From assembly GCF_964355755.1 (NCBI RefSeq), contig NC_092678.1, positions 4,312,922-4,376,921 of the forward strand: a DNA stretch of 64,000 nt, written 5' to 3'. The translations under genes and the position numbers were made by a program. Source of the stretch: Antedon mediterranea (lineage: Eukaryota; Echinodermata; Crinoidea; Comatulida; Antedonidae). Below, piece by piece: positions 1 to 39,882 of this stretch (within the stretch, counting starts at the first letter, position 1; every line of letters starts with the position of its first letter). The notes beneath the pieces were generated by a model that was not told where the DNA came from, made no database searches, and saw only the letters and a program-made list of their open reading frames with translations.

Positions 1-94
1 CTATATTTAATCATATCACTACCATATTTGGGCACATTATACTTTTTTTTTAAACTAGTTTGATAGTGTAGACAGAGCTTGAAAACATTGGTAA
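1..94. mobile_element. MITE family C, right end only
   Basis: The window opens inside a short repeat. It contains the block with ATATTTGGGCACATTA and ends with GATAGTGTAGACAGAGCTT, the same right terminus as copies at about 29.8, 36.8, 48.2 and 59.4 kb. Only the right half is inside the window. It lies in an intron of the first gene. Confidence 0.6.
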
Positions 95-201
95 AATATT
101 GACAGCTTGAGTAATATTTACATTTAGTAATGTAGATAGTCTAAAGTTTTGAGAATAATGTTGAAGTTTTTAACGATATCATTTTGTTATTTTCTTTATA
201 G

Positions 202-2558
202 GTGGTGCTTTATTAACATCACCACAACCATCAAGAATTGCAGTTGTTTCGTCGCCAGTTCCAAAAGACCCACTAGCTGAACCAATCTACAGACCTGGTA
301 ATCGTGAATATGCCGTTGACAAGTCTCCACCTCGGTACAAAGGAGGTACTGTGATAGTTTAATTTTGGCATAAAGTTGGCCCTGCTTCCCTCAAAGAAGA
401 ACATAAGTGTATAGAGCTTGAAAAAATCTTATTAGTTTTTTATAATTTTTATTTACAGGACGTATAAAACCAGGTATTACATATAAAAAGGATCAAGGCA
501 GTAGTGATGAATGCAACAACGATGATGACGATGTCACACCGGTAAAAGCGACTTCACGCCCATCAAAAGCGACAGAGGTAAGTCAATTGATAAAGTTGTA
601 CCAAAAACTGTTGCATCATGATGTATTACTTGCACACTATCTCAATATTGGAGACCTTGGGAGACTTTCTGGTTTCAGACTTTCTGTTTTTAGGAGAATC
701 AACAGTACGTTTTGTCTATTGTATTTACTTGTTTTGTTTTAATTTTCAAGCCTCTTGCAGCATCGCCGACAGCAGGGGTAAGATCTAGAGACCCAGACCC
801 GTTGAACGATGATTTGTCCGAACATTCATTCAACAGACATTCCAATAACTACTTCCAAACAAGTCCTGGTGTGAAGTACCTCCCAGGTACAGGTTCACCA
901 CCAAGAACGTGGGCAGCTCCACGTCAACAAGCAATACACAGGGAACAAACTAGGCCTAGTGGAGGTAACAAACACATTGGATATAGTACTAGTCTATCTT
1001 TAGGAGAAGGGTTGGTGAATCCACCAGTCAGGAGTTCTTCTCATGGCAACTTGTTTACAAGCAGATTGTCTGAATAGCACCCCTAGACAACTTGTTTACA
1101 AGCAGAATGTCTGAATACCACCCCTAGACAACTTGTTTATAGGCAGAATGTCTGAATAGCACCCCTAGACAACTTGTTTACAAGTAGAATGTCTTAATAG
1201 CACCCCTAGACAACTTGTTTACAAGCAGAATGTCTGAATAGCACCCCTAGACAACTTGTTTACAAGCAGAATGTCTGAATACCACCCCTAGACAACTTGT
1301 TTATAAGCAGAATGTGTGAATAGCATCCCTAGACAACTTGTTTATAAGCAGAATGTCTGAATAGCACCCCTAGACAACTTGTTTACAAGCAGAATGTCTG
1401 AATAGCACCCCTAGACAACTTGTTTACAAGCAGAATGTCTGAATAGCACCCCTAGACAACTTGTTTATAGGCAGAATGTGTGAATAGCACCCCTAGATGA
1501 CTTGTTTATAAAGCAGAATATCTGAATAGCACCCCTAGACAACTTGTTTATAGGCAGAATGTCTGAATAGCATCCCTAGACAACTTGTTACAAGCAGAAT
1601 GTGTGAATACCACCCCTAGACAACTTGTTTACAAGCAGAATGTCTGAATAGCATCCCTAGACAACTTGTTTACAAGCAGAATGTCTGAATAGCACCCCTA
1701 GACAACTTGTTTATAGGCAGAATGTGTGAATAGCACCCCTAGATGACTTGTTTATAAAGCAGAATATCTGAATAGCACCCCTAGACAACTTGTTTATAGG
1801 CAGAATGTCTGAATAGCATCCCTAGACAACTTGTTACAAGCAGAATGTGTGAATACCACCCCTAGACAACTTGTTTACAAGCAGAATGTCTGAATAGCAT
1901 CCCTAGACAACTTGTTTACAAGCAGAATGTCTGAATAGCACCCCTAGATGACTTGTTTTGTCAGCATGTTCATGTCTGTGGGACTGCCCAGGTGTAGAGC
2001 ATACATAATACAGTAGATTGATAGAAATTGTGCATGAATTCAATTATGGTTATCTTTCATATCCTAAATCTAAAGGAAAACAAACCCAGGAAACGAGCAT
2101 ATTAGGGTTGGTGCTTGAAAGTTGTTTAAATACGGTACTGAAGATCCTTGATTTCAAATATTCATATCTACTCTTCTTTCTTATTTACAGGTCCTTTAGA
2201 TAAAGCACACACTAAAAACCTGCAAGGAAGACCTCTGACAGCAAAGCCGATGTCACGTGACCAAGCTAACCAGATAGAGAATCAACTATCAGATGACGAT
2301 GTTTCATCCATGTCCTCTGCCAGACAAGCGCGGGGAAAGTTAGCAGCCAAATCTACAAGAAATTCACGCCCAAGGACTGATCACACTAGAGACAATATAC
2401 ATCCATCTTTGGGCGTATCGAAATTAGACGATAGTCCGTCTAGTGATCAATTGTCCGCAATATCAAGTGTTTCCAGTTGTTCATTAGCGTCCGATATACT
2501 TGATCGAGCACGGAACCGAAGGGACAAATTTTGGGGAAGTAGTGGACAGACTAAATAA
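202..2558 (+). CDS. 3' end of an unrecognised serine-rich protein gene
   Basis: Four exons fit GT-AG rules and one frame: 202-345, 459-577, 751-964 and 2191-2558 (stop TAA). The 964 donor (GGAG then GTAACA) and the 2190 acceptor join as Ser-Gly-Gly-Pro-Leu. Reading past that donor instead gives an alternative end at a TAG at 1075-1077. The product is rich in Ser, Pro, Asp and Arg and looks disordered, with an acidic Asp run in exon 459-577. The C-terminus has a short charged helix-like segment (DILDRARNRRDKFWG) that may be its conserved part. No enzyme motif, signal peptide or membrane segment is visible. The 5' exons lie outside the window. I do not recognise the family; a cytoskeletal or centrosomal adaptor is possible but only a guess. 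Confidence 0.72.
1046..1957. repeat. 41-bp minisatellite, about 22 copies
   Basis: Tandem copies of a 41-bp unit with core GACAACTTGTTTACAAGCAG followed by AATGTCTGAATAGCACCCCTA. A block of six units beginning with the variant GATGACTTG at 1496 recurs at 1742, giving a 246-bp higher-order period. The first unit overlaps the readthrough end of the preceding exon and carries the TAG that would stop that isoform. In the preferred model the array is intronic. Confidence 0.95.
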
Positions 2559-3048
2559 TCAGCTTAGTAAATGCTAAGACCTGAAATTTTTATAGTCAAT
2601 TGTACATAATTTTTACTAATGTAATTTTAATTATGCAAAGTAGCTTTTAAAAAATCCAAATGTAATTTATTTTAAATGGTTTTATAGACACTAATCTTTT
2701 TTAATGTAAATTTTTAATGAGGTTTTATAAGATCCCAAAATGTAGTTCTGTAACTGTTTTCTAATTCTAATAATAATACCCATCAAATTATTAAAACATT
2801 ATTATTTTTGTATTTGTACTTAGGGAAGGAAAATCATTTTATTTCTGAAAAAAAAAAGAAAACCAAAAATGCTGATTTTAGTCAGATATGCTAGTAGTGT
2901 AAGACATGTGTGATCTGTTTTTCAAAATGTAAAAAACAATCGAAATTAAACCAAACTGAAACACTGTGATTCATGTAAACTTTCCTTTATTTACGCCATT
3001 GTTCACCAGCAGCAATTTACAGTAACAATCCAAATTAAAAGTGATGAT
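2559..3048. other. 3' flank between convergent genes
   Basis: AT-rich sequence between the stop of the serine-rich gene (+) and the stop of RPS23 (-). It should hold both 3' UTRs, which converge here. An ATTAAA-type signal lies near 2945 on the plus strand. No open frame or repeat is seen. Confidence 0.5.
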
Positions 3049-4375
<1,327 letters not shown>

Positions 4376-4537
4376 CTTGTTTTTTAGGTTGATCGAAAAG
4401 GTCTAATCAATCCCAAAATGCAATTCACCAGAGCAAGCGCTAATCAAATGATAGAGGGCAGCATTCCCTGCAAAAAAACAATAACAAAAATCTAATCATC
4501 GCGGCGGCCCAACCCACATTAAAAATCTGCAGAAAAT
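4376..4537. promoter_or_regulatory. Bidirectional promoter between RPS23 and copine
   Basis: Only 162 bp separate the RPS23 ATG (minus) from the copine ATG (plus), so both promoters must lie here or in the flanking introns. There is no TATA box on either strand. On the minus strand CCTTTTC, ending about 24 bases before the RPS23 ATG, fits a terminal oligopyrimidine (TOP) start. A GC-rich patch GCGGCGGCCCAACCC at 4501-4515 is nearest the copine start. TOP control is established for ribosomal proteins; assigning it to this C run is inference. Confidence 0.65.
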
Positions 4538-11880
<7,343 letters not shown>

Positions 11881-13823
11881 ATCATTTTACAGAGGCTAAA
11901 GAAGCTACGAGTGAGTTAAACTAAACCATTTAAAGAGGCTAAACCGGGCTACAATCGATTAAGTAAATTATGAGTTGAAATCTTTTACAGGGGTTATTCC
12001 TAGCCGTCCAGTAGTCTGCTATTTACAATAGTTTTATTCTACTGCATACTGTATTACAACTTGTTTATATTACTTATTTTGTGGCATTTGTTTTTAAAAT
12101 GAAGGTTGGTGCTTGGTTTAGTGGATCATTATCATTGTGATATGCCACATTTTTAACTCTAAGATGGAGTATTTGTTTGTCATTCAATTTATTCCAGGTA
12201 TAGGTACTATCATATAAATTACCCTCTTGCCATTTTAGTGTGTTTTTCTTCCAGAACAAAATTCAATATCTAGCTCAACAGAACTATGTTTTAACGGTAA
12301 CCATTTGAAATTCAGAAAATAAGAAACAAAAATAGTTTTCATCAATAAAAATTGAAAAAGATTTTTTTAGTGGAAGATTTGAATTAACCTGCTCTACCTT
12401 TTGAAATTATTACATAACTTCTTAAATAGATAAACTTATTAAATAACTTAAATATAGAAATTCTATAGCAAGGTACAGTATGTGAATGTGTTGGACTAGG
12501 AGAGTTTAGAAGTACTACTGATAATGTTTACCCATTCCCCTGCTGTGTGGATCGTAAAACACACTCCCAATTGCTCATATTTTGATATTTAAATTAGTTA
12601 TTGTGTGTTGTGTTATAATTATAATAGTATCATGTTTTAATAATGAAAATATTACAATTATAGTATTAGATCGTAACATTAGTGAAATAATTTTTAGTGT
12701 TTTAAAATTCAAGTTATAATTACTGTTTACATAATTATGTAATACAGACTTAGATACAAACAAAGTGCAATCTTAAATTGTAACTATTTGCATAAAATGA
12801 ATATGCAAGTGTCAGTTTACTGAGCTGCATTTGCATACATGTGTGAACATTCTCATTTAATATAATACCTTGCCCTGATATATAATATCACATTTAAAAA
12901 AGGAATTGTATTTATTTATTATTTAAAGTTTGACCAACATAGTATTGGTGATTACCATTCCTTACTGTAAGCCGAATTTAATTTCATTATGTTACTAATT
13001 ATTTAAATCATTTTGATATAATCAATTTTATAAAATACTATTTTAGTATAATATTGTTTGTTTATATACGTTTGCCCTAAAGACCAAACCACTTGTTTTT
13101 CATAATGGAAAAATGTTCCTATTTATGCAATGTGCAAATTTACATAATGTAATGCATTTATCAATTATATATATATATATATATTTGAATTTTGGCTTTT
13201 TGTATATTATATCATGAAGGTATCATGATTTGATTGCGTAGTTATTATAAATCTTCTTACTCATAGATAGATAGTTAGTATTTAATGTGGCTTTTTTCTA
13301 AATACAATATTTCGTGTATTCTATGACATTTAGTGACCTTCATTCTTCAACTTATGTGCAATATTATGTAAGTGTATAGTGCCTGATTATCTGTATTACT
13401 TTCCAGGAAAGTAACTGAATTGTTGCAGAGTAAAAACATTAATAATAATAACAGTACATCATATGTTTACTATAATAATTGTTGTAATTTGATATGTTTG
13501 CCATTTTCTGAGTAGAGTAGAATTGAAGATTTAGTTGCCTTTCTCCACCTATTTACAGTATAAGCAAACACCAATAGTTCAAGTGAAGATAAAGTTATTA
13601 TCATCGTTTTAAGGTCCACATGACGTTGAACATTTTAAGCATCTCTCAGGAAATAAGAATTGCGTGGAGCTGGTTCACACTAATCATGACGCTAAACAAA
13701 TACGCTCTGCTGTGAACCATCCTTTTATTTCACAATTTGTTTTAGTCAGAACAAAATCAGCTTCGTGATTGTTGCCAGATTCTCGTTTTAAACTTTTTAT
13801 AGGTTTAAAATCAAGAAATCAAG
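11881..13823. other. Copine 3' UTR and flank
   Basis: AT-rich sequence after the copine stop with no convincing exon on either strand. It holds a (TA)n run near 13167-13184. A duplicated fragment of the copine end (AAATCATTTTACAGAGGCTA and TAAACCATTTAAAGAGGCTA) lies at 11879-11942. The poly(A) site cannot be fixed. Confidence 0.4.
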
Positions 13824-13825
13824 TA

Positions 13826-14011
13826 CAGTCAACTCTCCCAATACCGGACACCTTTGGGCCGGCCAAATAAGTCTGGTTTTCCGGAAAGTCTGGTATTCGG
13901 AATGTGTTTTTAATGGTAAATATAAATTTGGGACCTTTTGGTCCTCAAAAAAAGTCTGGTATTGGGAGAGTTTCTGGTTTTCAGAGAGTCCGGTATTGGG
14001 AGAGTTGACTG
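13826..14011. mobile_element. 186-bp MITE with 24-bp terminal inverted repeats and TA duplication
   Basis: It begins CAGTCAACTCTCCCAATACC and ends with the reverse complement; 24 terminal bases match. TA flanks both sides (13824-13825 and 14012-14013). Internally the phrase AAAGTCTGGTATTGGGAGAG repeats the ends. TA duplication and the CAGT start fit the pogo/Tc1-mariner superfamily; no transposase is present. Confidence 0.9.
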
Positions 14012-14013
14012 TA

Positions 14014-15467
14014 TCAACCAAAATTCTTTAAAGTAGATTAGTTGATAATATTTCATGGATATAAGGGGGATGTCAAATTATTCTACTACAGTAACTACAT
14101 TTTACTGCAGTAATATATGACTTCAGTTTTAATGTAAACGTTCACGAGTTACTGCAATATTCAACAATGTGTATTATTACTCAAAAATTCTAAATAACTT
14201 AGGTTAAAGAGTAAACAACTGCAGTAACTGCAGTAGAATAACGTTGTCATGGTCCCCAATCCTTAGTTGATATAGTATAGGTTAATAAAGACGAGTGTAC
14301 AATCTTTTAAATATATTGAAATATGAAATTCGGACATTTTATCTATGCAGTAATATATACACACCTAGTAAATATAGAGAATAGAATGCTTAATCAAATA
14401 TTATATAAGAGGACCATTATCATATGGTGCTTGGGTAATCGTATTACATCACTGAAAATGTGATGAATTTTATTCCTTAAAAGTTCTGTTATGTAAATCA
14501 TCAAATTACTTAAGTAACTATTATATGAAGTTAGTTTTGAAACTTTCTACTATTATACGTTCTATGATAAGTAGAAAAAATCTGAAGAGTAGGTAACAGC
14601 CCATATAGACTACCTCAAATATGGCGATCATGTAGCAACGGGATCATGTCAAAATCTTACGTATTCGGTATCATAAACTGAAAACCAACTTATTATTATC
14701 ATAATGCCCACTGTTTGAATCTGCCATTTTTAAATCCTTGTTCTAAATCCTTGTTCCAATTTGGTCTTCCCCAGTCCTTATCTATCTCATCCATCCGTCT
14801 TTGGGACAATCCTTTTTAACCATTCAGGTAACCATCTGTTGACCTTCTTCATGACCAGCCTATTTGCATGGTTTAACATTTTCTTTCCAGGATTCTCATC
14901 ATTCTTATTCTATTTAAACATCTGAATGTCAGTTGTCTATTTATACATTCAAGCATAATACACATCATTCAGCCAATCAATTAAATAAATCTGTTATAAT
15001 AATTCGAATATGTAGAGGGTTCCCAACATACCTATTTGGATCTGCTTGATGGTTGGTTGAAGTATTTTAGTATTTCAGCAGTATTTGACTTTTTATCAGT
15101 ACGATTCTCATATGCTTCTAGCTTGTGAATTTTTTGTATTTTTCTTGGTTATACAGTAGTAATGACTAATATCGAACAATTATAAACAATTTCTTCAGAA
15201 TTTACATTGTAGTATTGTGTATGTGTGTAATTTTAACTTTGTATCGTATTAAATGAATTTAATTCCAGTATGTTATTCGCATTTTATTATATAATAAAAC
15301 TATTATGAGAAATCATTGAAGAAACATTAAAAGATTAAAACAAAAGTTTGTTTTTGATTGTATTGTGTGGTTGTAGCAATGTAGAGTTGTTGAAAGATTT
15401 GCAAGGCCGCGAGTAAGCAAGGTTTGCAGATCACTAGGCTACGTGGTTAAAAGAAATGAAATCTGTC
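14014..15467. other. Intergenic, no gene seen
   Basis: AT-rich sequence with short open frames only. Nothing with splice support or a recognisable repeat was found. Confidence 0.4.
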
Positions 15468-15713
15468 GTATTCGATTGGAAACTTTTGTTGTCAACATAA
15501 AGATTCATTTTTTCCTTTTTGTATTCCGAATGGTAAATTGTAAACGAATTGTATGGTGCTCAATGGAAAATCATTCGAATAAATAACGTTAACAACGCAA
15601 GCTTTTTTCTTAAGAACAATCTTAACGTTCAAAATAGGCATAAGTACTCAACGGAAAAATTATACTCAACGGAAAAATTATACTCAACGATAAAGCTCCT
15701 AATCGAATACGAC
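15468..15713. repeat. Inverted-repeat element, about 246 bp
   Basis: GTCGTATTCGATTGG at 15468-15482 is mirrored by CTAATCGAATACGAC at 15699-15713. The right half carries a short tandem block (ACTCAACGGAAAAATTAT, two to three copies). It looks like a small non-autonomous DNA element; no clear target duplication is visible. Confidence 0.5.
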
Positions 15714-15955
15714 ATTGAAACAAAATGAATAGACACCAACATTATATATGAATTGTTGTATTTAATAAAAAAGAGTTTCGGAAAAATTAATCATTAATCA
15801 AAATTAATATTATGATCATGACGAAATACAGAATATAATATTTAACATTTTAGAGCATGAGTCCTTAGTAGAGTTCTAATATGAAATGTAACGGTGTTAG
15901 GGTATACAAAATGTCATGCCATCAAAGTGAAGAAAATTATCTTTCTTTTTGCAAC

Positions 15956-18900
15956 TTAACAGTTCGAGTTGTCAGTATCGCACGATGATGTCACTTGATT
16001 GAAGTATAAGCCAGAAATACACAAATGGAGAGTTGATACACCATCGTAGCATTGATAGAATTTCTCACAGTCGTCTGGATTTTCATAGAAACCATTTGCT
16101 TTACCGCTGCATGAGAATCCTGTTGAAACCTGAGCTGCCACTTGGACTCCTTTGCACTCCAGAAATGCTGCCTGGCTACAGTAAGAAGGGGGGTTGTTGA
16201 ACCCACAAATGTAAAAACGCCCACAAATGTGAAAACAACCACAAATGTGAAAACGCATCACCCACAAATGTGAAAACAACCACAAATGTGAAAACGCATC
16301 ACCCACAAATGTGAAAACAACCACAAATGTGAAAACGCATCAACCACAAATGTAATAAACAGCGCCCACAAATGTGAAAACGATCATCGCCCACAAATGT
16401 GATAACGCCCACAAATGTAAAAAAAAATGAGAATTTTTCGGCCACAAATGTAAAAAAAAAAAAATCAGATGAAATTTAATGCTAGACTCAAACAATTTTG
16501 ATCGAGGTACTACATTATATCATGATTGTATTGAGTTGTTTCAATAATTGTTTGTTCACGATACGTCTGTTAGGGTCGTGGTTAACACGTTGGATTATTA
16601 TAATTTTCTGCTCATGCGCGCGATATTTGCACGTTAACTCGTTTAATGAACGTAATAGTTCAAGACGATATTTGTTATTTGCTGCGCGCGTGCACGATAC
16701 TTCAAGGTCAAGGCCATGTTATATCATTGTTGCTTCTACTGGTTATTATAGTTATTAACTCGTTGGCTTACTGTTAAATGTACGTATAGTTCCAAGTCGA
16801 TGCTCGATTCGATGTTTTTTTTGCGCGCACACGATACAACAAGGTCAATGTTAAATTGCTACTTGTATGTAGTGTGTGGTTATTAACTCGTTGGCTTACT
16901 GTTATGACTTCTAATGCTCATACAATTAGTGTTATAGGCATCTCCAATCAAGTGTAAGCCTACTATTAGTAGATAACATTATTTAATCGCATTGCAACTC
17001 CTCCTTAAATATTTTGTTAGGTAATTCATGAAGCCAGTTTGTTCCTCATTAACAATACCGTTATACCTTGTACGTTGACTTATTTACTTATAATTATATT
17101 ATACATAAAAATTGTCGAATATACGTTTGATAGTAAATCAGTTAAATTGTAATGCATTCAATAGGTAATATTATTCTCCGTATATCTTTATAATTATCCG
17201 CTAAAAATAGATATACAAATTAAACAATAAGCATCAGATTAAACCACGAATGTAAATAGTAGTAGGCCTATAGTAGGAAGTTTTGTCCATTAGTATAATT
17301 GTTATAGATTTCATAGTATGTTTTATAGAATACATGTTCGTGACAAGTTTGATACTATCGTATCGTGTATTATGTTTGGTTGGATATTGGTGTTACGGTA
17401 TTATTCTATGTTACAATTTGTTTATCGCTCTAAAATAAAGAAATATTCTTTTATTAGTTGTTCTTGCTCTAGCTCTTGTATTATTATCTTGTGGTTATAG
17501 TTTTGTAAAAAAATTGAACATTAGGAACTACTGCAATAACTGAACGACGAGTATAGCATTGATCTTGTAGTATCGTGTACACCGAGCATCGACTTGGAGC
17601 TATAATACGTACATAATACTAATAAATATAGTAAGCCCAACTGCACTTCAAGCAGCAATGATATATGACCTTGTAGTATCGTGTACGCGCCCAAAAACAT
17701 CGAATCGAGCATCGACTTGGAACATACGTACATAACAGTAAGCCAACGAGTTAATAACCACACACTACATACAAGTAGCAATTTAACCTTGACCTTATTG
17801 TATCGTGTGCGCGCAAAAAAAAAATATCGAACATCGACTTATAACTATACGTACATAATAGTAAGCCAACAACCACACAGTAGAAGCAACAATGATATAA
17901 CATGGCCTTGACCTTGTAGTATCGTGCACGCGCGCAGCAAATAACAAATATCGTCTTGAACTATTACGTTCATTAAACAAACGAGTTAACGTGCAAATAT
18001 CGCGCGCACGAGCAGCAAATGATTATTATCCAACGTGTTAACGACGACCCTAACAGACGTATCGTGAACAAACAACTCAATACAATCATGATATAATGTT
18101 TGTCTGAATCTAGCATTAAATTTGATCTGATTTTTTTACATTTGTGGGCGAAAAAGTCTCTCTTGTTTTTACATTTGTGGGCGTTATCACATTTGTGGGC
18201 GATGATCGTTTTCACATTTGTGGGCGCTGTTTTCACATTTGTGGTTGATGCGTTTTCACATTTGTGGTTGTTTTCACATTTGTGGGTGATGCGTTTTCAC
18301 ATTTGTGGTTGTTTTCACATTTGTGGGTGATGCGTTTTCACATTTGTGGTTGTTTTCACATTTGTGGGCGTTTTCACATTTGTGGGTTCAACAGGGGTTG
18401 TTGGCATCAAAGGCGTAGTAGGACGAGCACCGGTGATGTCCGGGGACTCCTGAAGAACAGTTATAGTACCACTCACACATTCCAGTGAAGGGGTCGGGAT
18501 AGATACCATCATTTTTACCAGAGCAAAACGGGTCAGAGTTTGCCTGAGATGCTGAAATATACAACAGTGGATGATTAGATTTTACGGTGCCTGGTAGATC
18601 CAGAAATTTCACACATGGGGTAGGGGGGGGGGGCGGCTGGGTGACTGTAGGCATCACAAATAAAAACACTATACATTTTTATTAATAATTTATACTATAC
18701 TACTATTAAAATCAAAATTGTGAGGTATTTGATGAATAGGTGTTTATTTGATGATGAGAATAGTTTCTTGAAACATGTCACGGTATCTTAAGGCAGTTTG
18801 CCCGTTCATCAAATGCCTAACAATTTTGATTTTAACCCGAAGGTTTGGTGGTATCATACATGATTTATACTAAGTTACTTTAACATTCACAATTGAATGA

Positions 18901-19210
18901 AGTTAAACATTGATTTTAAAATCGATTATATATGCAGCATGTTGGAAAACAAGAATCTGATTGTATTAATTATGGTGAGGATGTGCTTCCACGAAGATCT
19001 TGAACTTAACTTTTTATTTGAAGAAAAGTGAATTCGTTAAGACCATCTTGCTATCTGTCTGTCGATGAATTACTCCAACAGTCTTCACATAAATCATGTC
19101 TTTAATAGCTAATTTAGTTATTATTTAATAAAAATTCAGTACTTACCAGCCGGCATTAGGCCAATGTTGATAACAATAACCAGTAGTGTAGTTGCAATAC
19201 CCATATACAT
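15956..19210 (-). pseudogene. Secreted chitin-binding protein (two CBM14/peritrophin-A domains), coding exon split by a transposon
   Basis: Exon 1 (19210-19147) encodes a signal peptide: MYMG, then a hydrophobic stretch ending GLMPA. Exon 2 starts at 18551. Its frame runs through a first CBM14 domain (FCSGKNDGIYPDP, CEWYYNC, HRC) to 18394, where a 2.2-kb foldback element begins. Beyond the element the same frame resumes at 16189 and continues to a stop at 15956-15958 through a second CBM14 domain (CSGKANGFYENPDDCEKFYQC, LCISGLYFN). Counting one copy of the flanking direct repeat, the coding length is 456 bp, exactly 152 codons. Read into the element, translation stops one codon later (Pro-Cys-stop), leaving one domain. 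Such proteins bind chitin extracellularly. The insertion may be a recent allele, a fixed loss, or removed by an unseen splice. Confidence 0.88.
16195..18393. mobile_element. TU-like foldback transposon with long inverted repeats
   Basis: The element is 2199 bp, bounded by TGTTGAACCC and its reverse complement GGGTTCAACA. The flanks carry a direct repeat GGGGT (16190-16194 and 18394-18398), extendable to GGGGTTGTTG because the terminus overlaps it. The arms are roughly 700 bp each. The outer part is a tandem array of short units sharing CACAAATGTGAAAAC. The inner part is non-tandem, with larger blocks sharing GCGCGC, ACGATAC, CAAGGTCAA and TAACTCGTTGGCTTACTGTTA. The central 0.7 kb is AT-rich with no open frame of note, so it is non-autonomous. 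From memory, sea urchin TU elements share this outer-repeat/inner-domain architecture; the assignment is inference. Confidence 0.88.
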
Positions 19211-22592: not shown

Positions 22593-24177
22593 ATGATCAT
22601 GTTTTATCTCATCTGTTTGTTGTTTTTCACGTCTCAACTGAATATTATTGAAGGAGCGAATAATGGTAAGAATTAACTTTTGTTTGTTTCTTCCGAATTG
22701 TTCTGAAGTTCCGATTATCGCCCAATCTACCACATATACAATGTACAGTGAATACACCGTGTTAATTCGAATACATTTTCTTACAACAGAATGTACATAT
22801 TTCCAGTACAACTCATCAATGTACAGGGTAAATAGTTTAACCAACACGTCAACAGAGACATGGCAGGATCTCAAAGACATCTGCAAGGCATCTGGTGGTT
22901 ATCTCATGTGCATTACCACGTCTGGGGAGTTGCAGTTTGTTCTGGATCGTCTTAATATGAGTTGTAGCGGCCATAGGTTCGGAATTGGACTATCACGTCA
23001 ACCTGATTTGGAAATTAACGTTGATGCTAACTGGAAATGTGAGGGAGATGGTACTACACTGGACACCAAGCTGACACCATGGGCAGATAATGATGACAAA
23101 GTACCTATTGGCACTTTTGCTGGGACGAGAATCATGACGAATGCGGAAAATCTGAGAGATATAAACACCCGGATTGAATTTGCTAAACGGAACGATGGAT
23201 ACATTTGTGAATATGGTATGTTGATATTTTCTTGATGCTTCATTATTTTAGTTATCTTTTAAGGATATTTCAAGATTGTTTTGCCGATAAGTATAGGCCT
23301 AGTTCGTTTTTAGTGATATTTTATTAAAGAAAATACGCAATACGTGATAATGGTCTTGTAGCTGACCAAACATAGTCGACAGTACAGTGTCGACAAAACG
23401 ACAATTACAATCCTGTTGGTGCAGTACCCGCTGCTTACTTGGGCTTGAATCTAACCACTAGCCATCAGCGCAAAGCTCGGTGGTCTAGAGATATGAACGC
23501 CAGGCTAGTGATCTGGAGGTCATGGGTTCGAGTCCCACCGGAGAACTACTTTTTCTCAAATGTACTTTAGTATAAAGTACAAATTACGTCAGAGTAGGGC
23601 AAAACATCTAATTAGAAACATTTTATTTTTTTTTAAATCCGCGGAGATTCGAACCAGCTAGTAGGCCTAGAGCTGCGAGAATCATTGTCTCGATGCTTCA
23701 TTTAAGTTCTTTTTAGTGATAAGGGCCTATTAACAAAGAAAATACTCAATTTGTGATAATGTTGGATCTGACCAATTCAAACATAGTCGACACACTGTCG
23801 ACTTAAGGTATATAACAAATTCAAGAAATAAGTGCATTAGATTTGGATATTAAACAAGTCCATGTTGCGTAATTGTTGGTGTAGTGGTGGATAAGACTAC
23901 TACTGATAGAGATGGCCATTTGCCGCATGATTCTTTATTTTAATTCATATTTATAATAGGCCTACCTATTGTTTTTTTAGATACAGTCCTTTTTCAAACT
24001 GTGACGTTGTCTGGTGGTGTGAATGATTGGAAGATGTCTCCTATACGATGTGCCCAGCAGTGCCGAAGGAGGTATGATTGTCAGGGATTTCACGTGGATG
24101 CTGCAGGTTGTCAGCTCAGATATAAACCGAACAATGATGAAACAAATCATTATAACAAAATTATCTATCACCTGTAA
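22593..24177 (+). CDS. Secreted C-type-lectin-like plus PAN/apple protein
   Basis: Three exons, 22593-22665, 22790-23215 and 23981-24177, join to 231 residues, with both introns in phase 1. Residues 1-21 are a signal peptide (MIMFYLICLLFF). Residues 26-166 are a C-type-lectin-like fold with the cysteine/tryptophan pattern: ECTYFQYN, TWQDLKDICKASGGYLMCI, ANWKCEGDG, and the closing GYICEYG. No EPN or WND calcium site is visible in the usual place, so sugar binding by the classical route is doubtful. Residues 167-230 form a PAN/apple-like module with four cysteines (RCAQQC, YDCQGF, GCQL). Domain-per-exon structure in phase 1 fits exon shuffling. Likely extracellular recognition or adhesion. AATAAA near 24452 is a possible poly(A) signal. 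Confidence 0.88.
23474..23545 (+). pseudogene. tRNA-Thr(AGT)-derived relic
   Basis: Seventy-two bases fit canonical tRNA numbering: T8, box A TGGTCTAGAG, G26, anticodon stem CCAGG/TCTGG, loop CTAGTGA (T33, anticodon AGT, G37), and box B GGTTCGAGTCC. The acceptor stem has three mismatches and the D stem one, so it is not a working tRNA. It is a pseudogene or the head of a SINE. Confidence 0.8.
23646..23655 (-). repeat. Second tRNA box B, opposite strand
   Basis: GATTCGAACC is the reverse complement of the consensus box B GGTTCGAATC. Upstream on the minus strand no full tRNA fold is seen. It lies about 100 bp from the tRNA-Thr relic and faces it. Confidence 0.5.
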
Positions 24178-36842: not shown

Positions 36843-38150
36843 GACATTTTATCCAAATCAAATCTATGTATTTCCTTTAAAATCCTAAATAATGGAAAAA
36901 GAAAATTTTAATTGGAGATGTGCGAAGTAATTCATTATTTCGGTGACCTTTTATCTATAACTCGTGGCATTGTGTTCGATTAAAAGTATAAATTATTTAA
37001 TCAAATGGTATACTCTTCTGTAGGCCTATTGTTGATATATTTCGGTGTGTAGTTTATACTTTTTAAGCTAATACTAAGTATGGTTTTATGTCTTGTTAAA
37101 CTGCATTTAATGTCTTTGTATGTTAAGGCCCATAGACTGAACTTGCCAATAATAATAAAATCAATTTTAATACAGTGATTATATTTTGTCGTTTTTGACC
37201 AATCTACACACAGATTAGGCGCACTTTCTTCACATAGTATACCATTCGTGTCCTAATTTTTCGTGAGATTTGCAATGTACTTATTAGTACGGGTACAAAT
37301 TACGTCGGAGCAAACATTACGCAAAGCTACACCACAGTAGCTACAAACAATGACAATCCGATAAGGATAATGATAAACAAAGAAACGATACATAAAATAA
37401 AAGAAAGGCCAAGTAAGTTGGTCTTAGTGCCATGACGTATGGTTTCATTGTTGACAAAGTACCGTATTGTACTTTGATTGTTCTTTTAGGCTACGATGCA
37501 CTCGTTGTCTTCTCTGTATATTTGTTTTGTGATCATTGACTCGTATAAATCGATATCCAAATCCAGACTGCTTTTATGATACATACATACCTCCTTCCGT
37601 GTTCCAAGTTTATTTGTTATTACCACGCAGTATAGCCTATTTGTACTGGGAATAAGATTTTAACAGGGGGTCTATTTGGGTTACACTGGACCGTTAAGAA
37701 GGATTGCGTTGGAATGTATTTACTTTGACAGCAACCTGATTCACAGCCTTCTCGGCGGGAGAGCAGGTGTTATTTTTCAAAGCTTATTGTAAAATTGTTA
37801 ATATATCTTGATGCAAAGGTCGATATAGGAGGTAACTCGTCGTTGTTAACATAGGAATAATGCAGTGAATATTATAACTATGGAAATGTAGAGGTAATGC
37901 TATGCCATGTTTGATGTGACTGATTGCTTAAATTGGAAAGCATCAAACCAAAGACTTGGAGATTGCGATTATTTCTATACATACAGAATGTTTAGCAGCA
38001 ATGCATAAATAGCCTAAAATAGTGGGTTCTTCAATGATGCTGATACAACTGTCGACTATCAAAATGGCATCGAACTGTAACTAAAAAAGCCACCAGTAGG
38101 CCTAACACTGTTAATATTTTTGCGGTAAACTTGAAAAGCCCGGACGGAAG
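36843..38150. other. Intergenic, upstream of the LRR gene
   Basis: No gene or recognisable repeat. Short open frames only. The promoter of the LRR gene presumably lies within the last few hundred bases; no TATA box is evident. Confidence 0.4.
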
Positions 38151-39882
38151 ATGGATAAAGAAATACGTGATCCTTCAGCAGAACTGGTGAAGTCGCTGGA
38201 AAAGTTGAATATCGTGCCATTTAGAAGCACTTCTCAGTTTGATTTGAGAGTGGATTTGAATTATCGACACTTACAGAAGCTGCCTGCTGATGTCTGCAGA
38301 CTGACAGACCTTCAGTGGTTAAATTTAAATGTCAATAGGCTGTTTGATCTTCCAGATGAACTTCAGCAACTTGTTAGATTAAGATGGTTGTATTTAGAAA
38401 GTAACAAGTTCGAACATTTCCCAAGAATTCTTTGCAAAGTTCCGTCTCTTGTCCGTTTATATTTCAGCAGTAATGCCCTGTCAACTCTTCCAACTGATGT
38501 GAAAGATCTCAGATGTCTAAGACTCTTGGATCTTTCAGACAATAATTTTAAAGATTTTCCCTCTGCAATATGCTGCTCAGAATTAAAACTTCTTGACAAA
38601 CTGTTTATAGATAACAATCAATTGAAGTGTATTCCATCTGAGATCAGTAAGTTAATTGGACTTAAGTCACTCTGGATGAATAACAATCAAATAGAATGGC
38701 TTCCGCAAAGCACAGCTGAGCTGGTGAATCTCGAGGAACTTCAGATTAAAAATAACAGTCTTCACGGCTTGCCAGCATACCTTGCCCCCGGATTAAACAA
38801 ACTTACTTCGATAGAATGGGAGGGTAACAGATTAACTCTAGCACTACGAGGACCTATTTCCCGTGGTGTCGGTGATCTTAGACAATACCAGATATGGGCT
38901 AGAGAGATGGCGTTGTCAAAAGAGATGGTTGAATTTCGGAGCAATCGAGAGTCAGGGATGGAGCGTCCATGCTATAGGATGCGAACGAGACCCAGGGGTG
39001 TGGCCGTTATCATAGATAATTTTCCAGCAGAAGACATTAATGAGGACAATAGTGAAACAGGTAAGAGGATCTGGGTGACATTTTGTTAATATGGAGGCGG
39101 TGGATGTCACATGTCGTATTCTGAGCGAAAGACCTCCTACTATTTTTTGAGAACTATGTATTTCTTTAAAGTAATGCAATTTTATTGTTATCTAATTTAT
39201 TTTCACAGACAAGCTTCGAAGTGTTCTGATAAAACTAGGATTCAACGTTCGTATAATGAAGGGATTGATATCCCTCGATATCATATCCGCTCTTCGTTTT
39301 ATATCGATGGAAGATCATCGCTATGTTGACTGTATCGTTGTTGTTCTCCTCTCGAAGGGGTCGAGTAATGCAGGAAATGTCCGAGGCAATGATGCCATCA
39401 AAGTAGAAATACGGCAACTCACAGACATCTTCACCGCTGCCAACTGCCCGACACTCGCAGGAAAACCGAAACTGTTCTTCTTGCAATTGCTAGAAGATAA
39501 AACAATGAAATCAGTTGGGAAGAAAGACAATGATTCTTCTTCTAAAAGTGATAGCTTAAAAGATCTAATACCAGATGAAGAAGATTTTTTGTTGACCGTG
39601 GCAGGTATCCCGCATACGATGTTACATGAATCAAAGACGAGAGCGTATACACTGTACGTTTCGTTATTGTTTGACATTCTGGAAAATTACGCACGTAAAT
39701 TGAACTTATTAGATTTGCTGGCTACGGTACATTCTCAAGTTAGTAATATCCAACTTACTACTGATATAACAACACAAAATGTGTGCCATAATGAAGCCCG
39801 AATTGTACCGTTTATTCAATCATCGCTACGATATAACCTCTACTTAAGCATTTACAATAGTACTAGAGAAAACACCAAGTAA
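38151..39882 (+). CDS. Leucine-rich-repeat protein with a C-terminal pseudocaspase domain
   Basis: Two exons, 38151-39060 and 39209-39882, give 527 residues. There is no signal peptide, so it is cytosolic. Residues about 28-215 hold some eight leucine-rich repeats of the short SHOC2-like type (LQWLNLNVNRLFDLP, LRWLYLESNKFEHFP, LRLLDLSDNNFKDFP, LKSLWMNNNQIEWLP). From about residue 275 the sequence follows a caspase (C14) fold: PRGVAVIIDN, LRSVLIKLGFNV, DCIVVVLLSKG, CPTLAGKPKLFFLQ, then DEEDFLLTVAG and LLDLLATVHSQV from the small subunit. The catalytic His of the SHG box is Lys353, and the catalytic Cys of QACRG is Leu398 (QLLED). It therefore cannot be a protease and more likely acts as a scaffold or decoy; that role is inference. 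The intron lies inside the caspase part. The LRR half alone is not diagnostic of a named family. Confidence 0.9.

Follow-up and report, generated by a model that had tools for sequence, protein, structure and literature searches.

How has a gene for a small chitin-binding protein come to carry 2.2 kb of inverted repeats in the middle of a coding exon, and what is left of the gene? The locus belongs to the window, a stretch of 64,000 nucleotides from the crinoid Antedon mediterranea. The answer, in which we have high confidence, is a recent insertion of a foldback transposon into exon 2 of a CBM14 gene, with duplication of 5 bp of the target and a probable loss of function.

The gene runs on the minus strand from window position 19210 to 15956, has two CBM14 domains, and its frame was checked from the sequence. 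Exon 1 (19147-19210, minus strand; 21 codons plus 1 nt) contains the start codon and a signal-peptide-like segment, MYMGIATTLLVIVINIGLMPA, and ends at the donor CTG/GTAAGT, which scores 10.7 bits with our home-made matrix. A GT-AG intron separates it from exon 2, whose acceptor is TATATTTCAG/CATCTC at 18551. The first part of exon 2 (18394-18551, minus strand) codes for the portion of domain 1 that precedes the insertion, contains one copy of the target duplication and matches positions 1-40 of the Pfam CBM_14 profile with 31-33 bits. The remainder (15956-16194, minus strand) holds the other copy of the duplication, the end of domain 1 with Cys5 and Cys6, the whole of domain 2, and the TAA stop at 15958-15956. 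The frame is open through AACAACCCC/TGTTGA at the right end of the element (18393) and picks up at ACCCCCCTTCTTACTGT on its left side.

When the element and one copy of the duplication are deleted, the gene reads 151 aa plus stop, which are the 152 codons of the original prediction, and its cysteine pattern is continuous. Each domain then has six cysteines, all 12 being present, with the spacing CX15CX5CX9CX14CX7C in domain 1 across the join and CX13CX5CX9CX12CX6C in domain 2; the insertion point lies between Cys4 and Cys5 of domain 1. Domain 2 matches the full PF01607 profile with 52 bits. Rejoined domain 1 scores 32.9 bits over profile positions 1-40 of 53, a gain of almost nil over the truncated domain. 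Because this Pfam match stops near the join, the exact join is supported by the duplication rule together with the reading frame and the spacing of the cysteines, and not by the profile score. The product is probably a small, secreted, two-domain protein. Both of its domains are of the CBM14/peritrophin-A kind (PF01607), from which it differs in being small, two-domain and secreted and in the wider Cys4-Cys5-Cys6 spacing of domain 1 (14 and 7). Its nearest solved relatives by sequence are the 25-kDa polyphenol-binding protein (8in3) and the CBM14 domains of chitinases; the assembly holds no close paralogue. Directly downstream of the gene there is a perfect 2.5-copy tandem repeat of 18 bp, TACTCAACGGAAAAATTA (15645-15689).

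The inserted element is a non-autonomous foldback transposon of 2199 bp (16195-18393) with the ends TGTTGAACCC...GGGTTCAACA. Its terminal inverted repeats are perfect over 18 bp and open into arms of about 800 bp, mutually inverted and near-perfect complements with small differences. Tandem CCACAAATGTGAAAAC units with an 18/41-bp period fill the outer 260 bp or so of each arm (left arm 16195-16460; right arm 18131-18393, inverted), and inward of these lie the inner domains (16461-16906, with further imperfect repeats, and, inverted, 17731-18130). This is foldback anatomy, that is, long terminal inverted repeats containing tandem repeats. A single arm is strongly self-structured by itself (z = -6.2 for 300 nt). 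The middle region (16907-17730) is 97-99% identical to that of other 2-2.4 kb copies, and no coding capacity or recognisable gene was found in it. The direct repeat GGGGT, earlier read as at least 5 bp, is exactly 5 bp long and lies at 16190-16194 and 18394-18398 on the plus strand. A longer duplication was considered, as CAACAACCCC (minus strand) is present at both junctions, but the length of 5 bp seen across the family led to its rejection; the surplus bases are the element's own target-like tip. The net gain is 2204 bp, or 2 mod 3, so the frame is shifted as had been proposed.

Does the family as a whole follow the same rule? Allowing one mismatch, we counted 152 occurrences of the 18-base tip across the 354 Mb of the genome, versus 0 for a reversed-pattern control; where tips are paired, the distance they enclose ranges from about 130 bp to 8.9 kb. 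An exact 5-bp duplication was found in 20 of the 23 distinct copies of which both ends were read, more than chance would produce. The pooled targets reveal a palindromic, GC-rich preference, about R-G-G-S-Y-Y, to which GGGGT conforms. Two sister insertions lie inside repeats whose uninterrupted copies serve as empty sites: among the matches listed, 23 such copies for L038 and 18 for L033 show 100% identity in the 150 bp that span the predicted join. These empty sites are direct evidence that an insertion brings in the element together with 5 bp and removes no bases, and the on-paper removal of the window copy is therefore correct. Dispersed copies, target duplications and empty sites together mark the family as mobile, and the family rule agrees with the original prediction that a foldback element entered a coding exon of a CBM14 gene whose frame is otherwise intact.

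Several family members have features of their own. The repeat unit that hosts L038 (G000:C5:11818987-11822689) holds a tRNA-like gene, assigned by ARAGORN to tRNA-Asp with the unusual anticodon ATC, and stands in tandem at several places with a spacing of about 364 bp. Two members of 4.17 kb lie 87 kb apart (G000:C1:24313103-24317272 and C1:24400093-24404261) and are possibly a segmental duplication; the interior of L077, the one of the two that was read, has degenerate repeats (REVVDYEKRSL...). The unpaired tip L082 (G000:C7:15958600-15960600) is less than 3 kb from a 213-aa frame that looks by eye like a caspase catalytic domain.

The age of the insertion is indicated by a sister copy. The window copy and the one at G000:C10:11453984-11456182, which is in the opposite orientation, are identical at 2199 of 2199 positions, while their flanks have no homology and their target duplications differ (GGGGT versus GGGAC). 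With zero differences, pairwise divergence would be at most about 0.14% (95% bound, 3/2199). The next closest copies differ from the window copy by about 5% in the arms. An identical sister at an unrelated site means that, by the standards of this genome, the insertion is very recent, which bears out the youth earlier suggested for it. The assembly, which appears to be single-haplotype, contains the filled allele of the CBM14 site and no empty one. Going by its age only, the insertion may be polymorphic, with the allele still segregating.

What protein would the interrupted gene make? The frame as assembled reads through into the element and ends after 75 aa with NNPC-stop. The tip of the element gives a cysteine roughly at the position of Cys5, followed by the stop, and Cys6 and all of domain 2 are lost. 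The original prediction, that the terminus supplies Cys and then a stop, was right with one correction: only Cys5 of domain 1 is replaced, and the product has five of the six cysteines. Since the unspliced frame stops after 75 aa and leaves domain 1 incomplete, the interruption has probably abolished the function of this allele, as judged from its sequence. The remaining transcript would include a long hairpin-forming 3′ region.

It was also proposed that the disrupted gene now makes a one-domain protein; in that case the element would provide the last cysteine and the stop. The 75-aa frame is open and has a signal-like start, and its truncated domain, which covers profile positions 1-40 only, still scores 31-32 bits against the Pfam cut-off of 22.1. 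However, Cys6 is missing from this domain, which presumably leaves Cys2 without its disulfide partner, and the insertion is too young for a signature of selection on a new product. Expression of such a protein is possible, yet it is less likely than simple loss since Cys6 is missing, and we regard its retention as improbable.

Could the element instead behave as an intron that is spliced out of a gene still functional? We scanned the splice sites with the home-made matrix. A cryptic pyrimidine-rich acceptor, CCCCCCTTCTTACTGTAG/CC at 16175, lies just within the downstream half and with 8.2 bits equals the true acceptor of exon 2. Some weak donors within exon 2a (5.1-5.6 bits) could yield proteins that stay in frame but carry deletions, and splicing of exon 1 to 16119 would join the signal peptide to domain 2. 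Nevertheless, the scan revealed no convincing donor/acceptor pair that removes the element cleanly and gives back the complete frame. Those pairs that stay in frame, including the partner donors of acceptor 16175, use poor sites or cost domain 1 its cysteines, and AG is absent near the 3′ edge of the element. The distant paralogues (37-42% identity) give no evidence of an ancestral intron, as they read through this region in frames that stay open for 682 and 1052 aa. A true intron at this codon, which would have contradicted the original prediction, was not encountered in these paralogues or in the splice-site scan. The letter-identical sister copy also speaks for a mobile element and not for an old intron of the CBM14 gene, so that a spliced, functional gene appears quite improbable.

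That the gene was a decaying pseudogene already before the insertion is very improbable: although the assembly has no close paralogue against which to gauge constraint, outside the insertion there is no further stop or frameshift, and the splice sites and all 12 cysteines are intact. An assembly misjoin or a mis-collapsed repeat is scarcely credible, for although repeats with long inverted arms assemble poorly and the C10 copy is identical, the two exact target duplications differ and both suit the target preference of the family.

We thus return to recent insertion as the best explanation. A non-autonomous foldback DNA transposon moved in recently, with transposase presumably supplied in trans, at the GC-rich target GGGGT in exon 2 of a two-domain, putatively secreted CBM14 (peritrophin-A type) gene, duplicating 5 bp. 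The event is clean and very recent, a gene disrupted by a member of an otherwise familiar kind of transposon family, and is biologically ordinary; the general understanding of how transposons work is unchanged by it. Its value is that a young non-autonomous transposon in a coding exon is sharply resolved, and that the same genome supplies the empty sites from which the exact insertion rule is deduced. Should the allele be segregating, it would offer a natural knock-out for a small chitin-binding protein and would also mark recent transposition.

Elsewhere in the window, two adjacent open stretches at 38115-39882 (plus strand) match LRR_8 (73.6 bits) and then the Peptidase_C14 caspase domain (94.5 bits) in Pfam, and are possibly a single LRR-caspase gene. 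An open frame at 22642-23235 (plus strand) has a weak C-type lectin match of 21.1 bits, slightly below the Pfam cut-off.

To which known transposons is this family related? Reading of open frames by eye found no transposase-like frame of the family in the long copies L060, L062-L066, L069, L077 and L078, or beside the four unpaired tips L079-L082, and no autonomous partner was found. L069 (G000:C5:12850800-12860799), a family member of 8.9 kb, is the sole copy bearing an integrase, and there the reverse transcriptase- and integrase-like frames, recognised by eye, are those of a nested gypsy-type retrotransposon. A genome-wide rve search gave 838 candidates, among which retrotransposons dominate too heavily for the result to be informative.

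Transib elements share with this family a 5-bp, GC-rich target duplication, but their ends start with CACWATG, whereas here the ends start with TGTTGAACCC in every copy read at the tip. The motif CACAAATG lies within the arms, away from the cleavage point. Ginger2/TDD elements have TGTNR...CA termini and duplications of 4-5 bp, 5 bp in TDD-4 and TDD-5, and Ginger2 favours AT-rich RTATAY targets and has terminal inverted repeats of 50-180 bp (PMC2836005). The termini (TGTTG) and the 5-bp duplication of our family agree with this description. In contrast, its target is GC-rich and RGGSYY-like and its arms reach about 800 bp. Ginger2/TDD elements also carry a Gypsy-integrase-like transposase; the long copies read here showed no integrase belonging to the family itself.

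Among foldbacks, the target duplication is 7 bp in Galileo and 8 bp in TU. Tetris and other Mutator-type foldbacks duplicate 8-10 bp (PMC4079207), and placement among them (FB, Tetris, Tm1) is disfavoured because our family duplicates 5 bp (20/23), a separation made on duplication length. The safest conclusion is a non-autonomous foldback family with a superfamily not assignable from the copies read. That it represents an undescribed DNA transposon lineage, combining foldback anatomy, TGTTG...CAACA ends and a palindromic GC-rich target preference with duplications of 5 bp, and trans-mobilised by a transposase active now or until very recently, seems to us unlikely. In its construction the family resembles the foldbacks of Drosophila (FB) and sea urchin (TU) as well as Tetris, Tm1 and Galileo: all have long inverted arms made up mostly of tandem repeats, a middle that is non-coding and varies in length, and copies of many sizes, here from about 130 bp to 8.9 kb, and with Tetris it also shares the occurrence of copies without transposase (PMC4079207).
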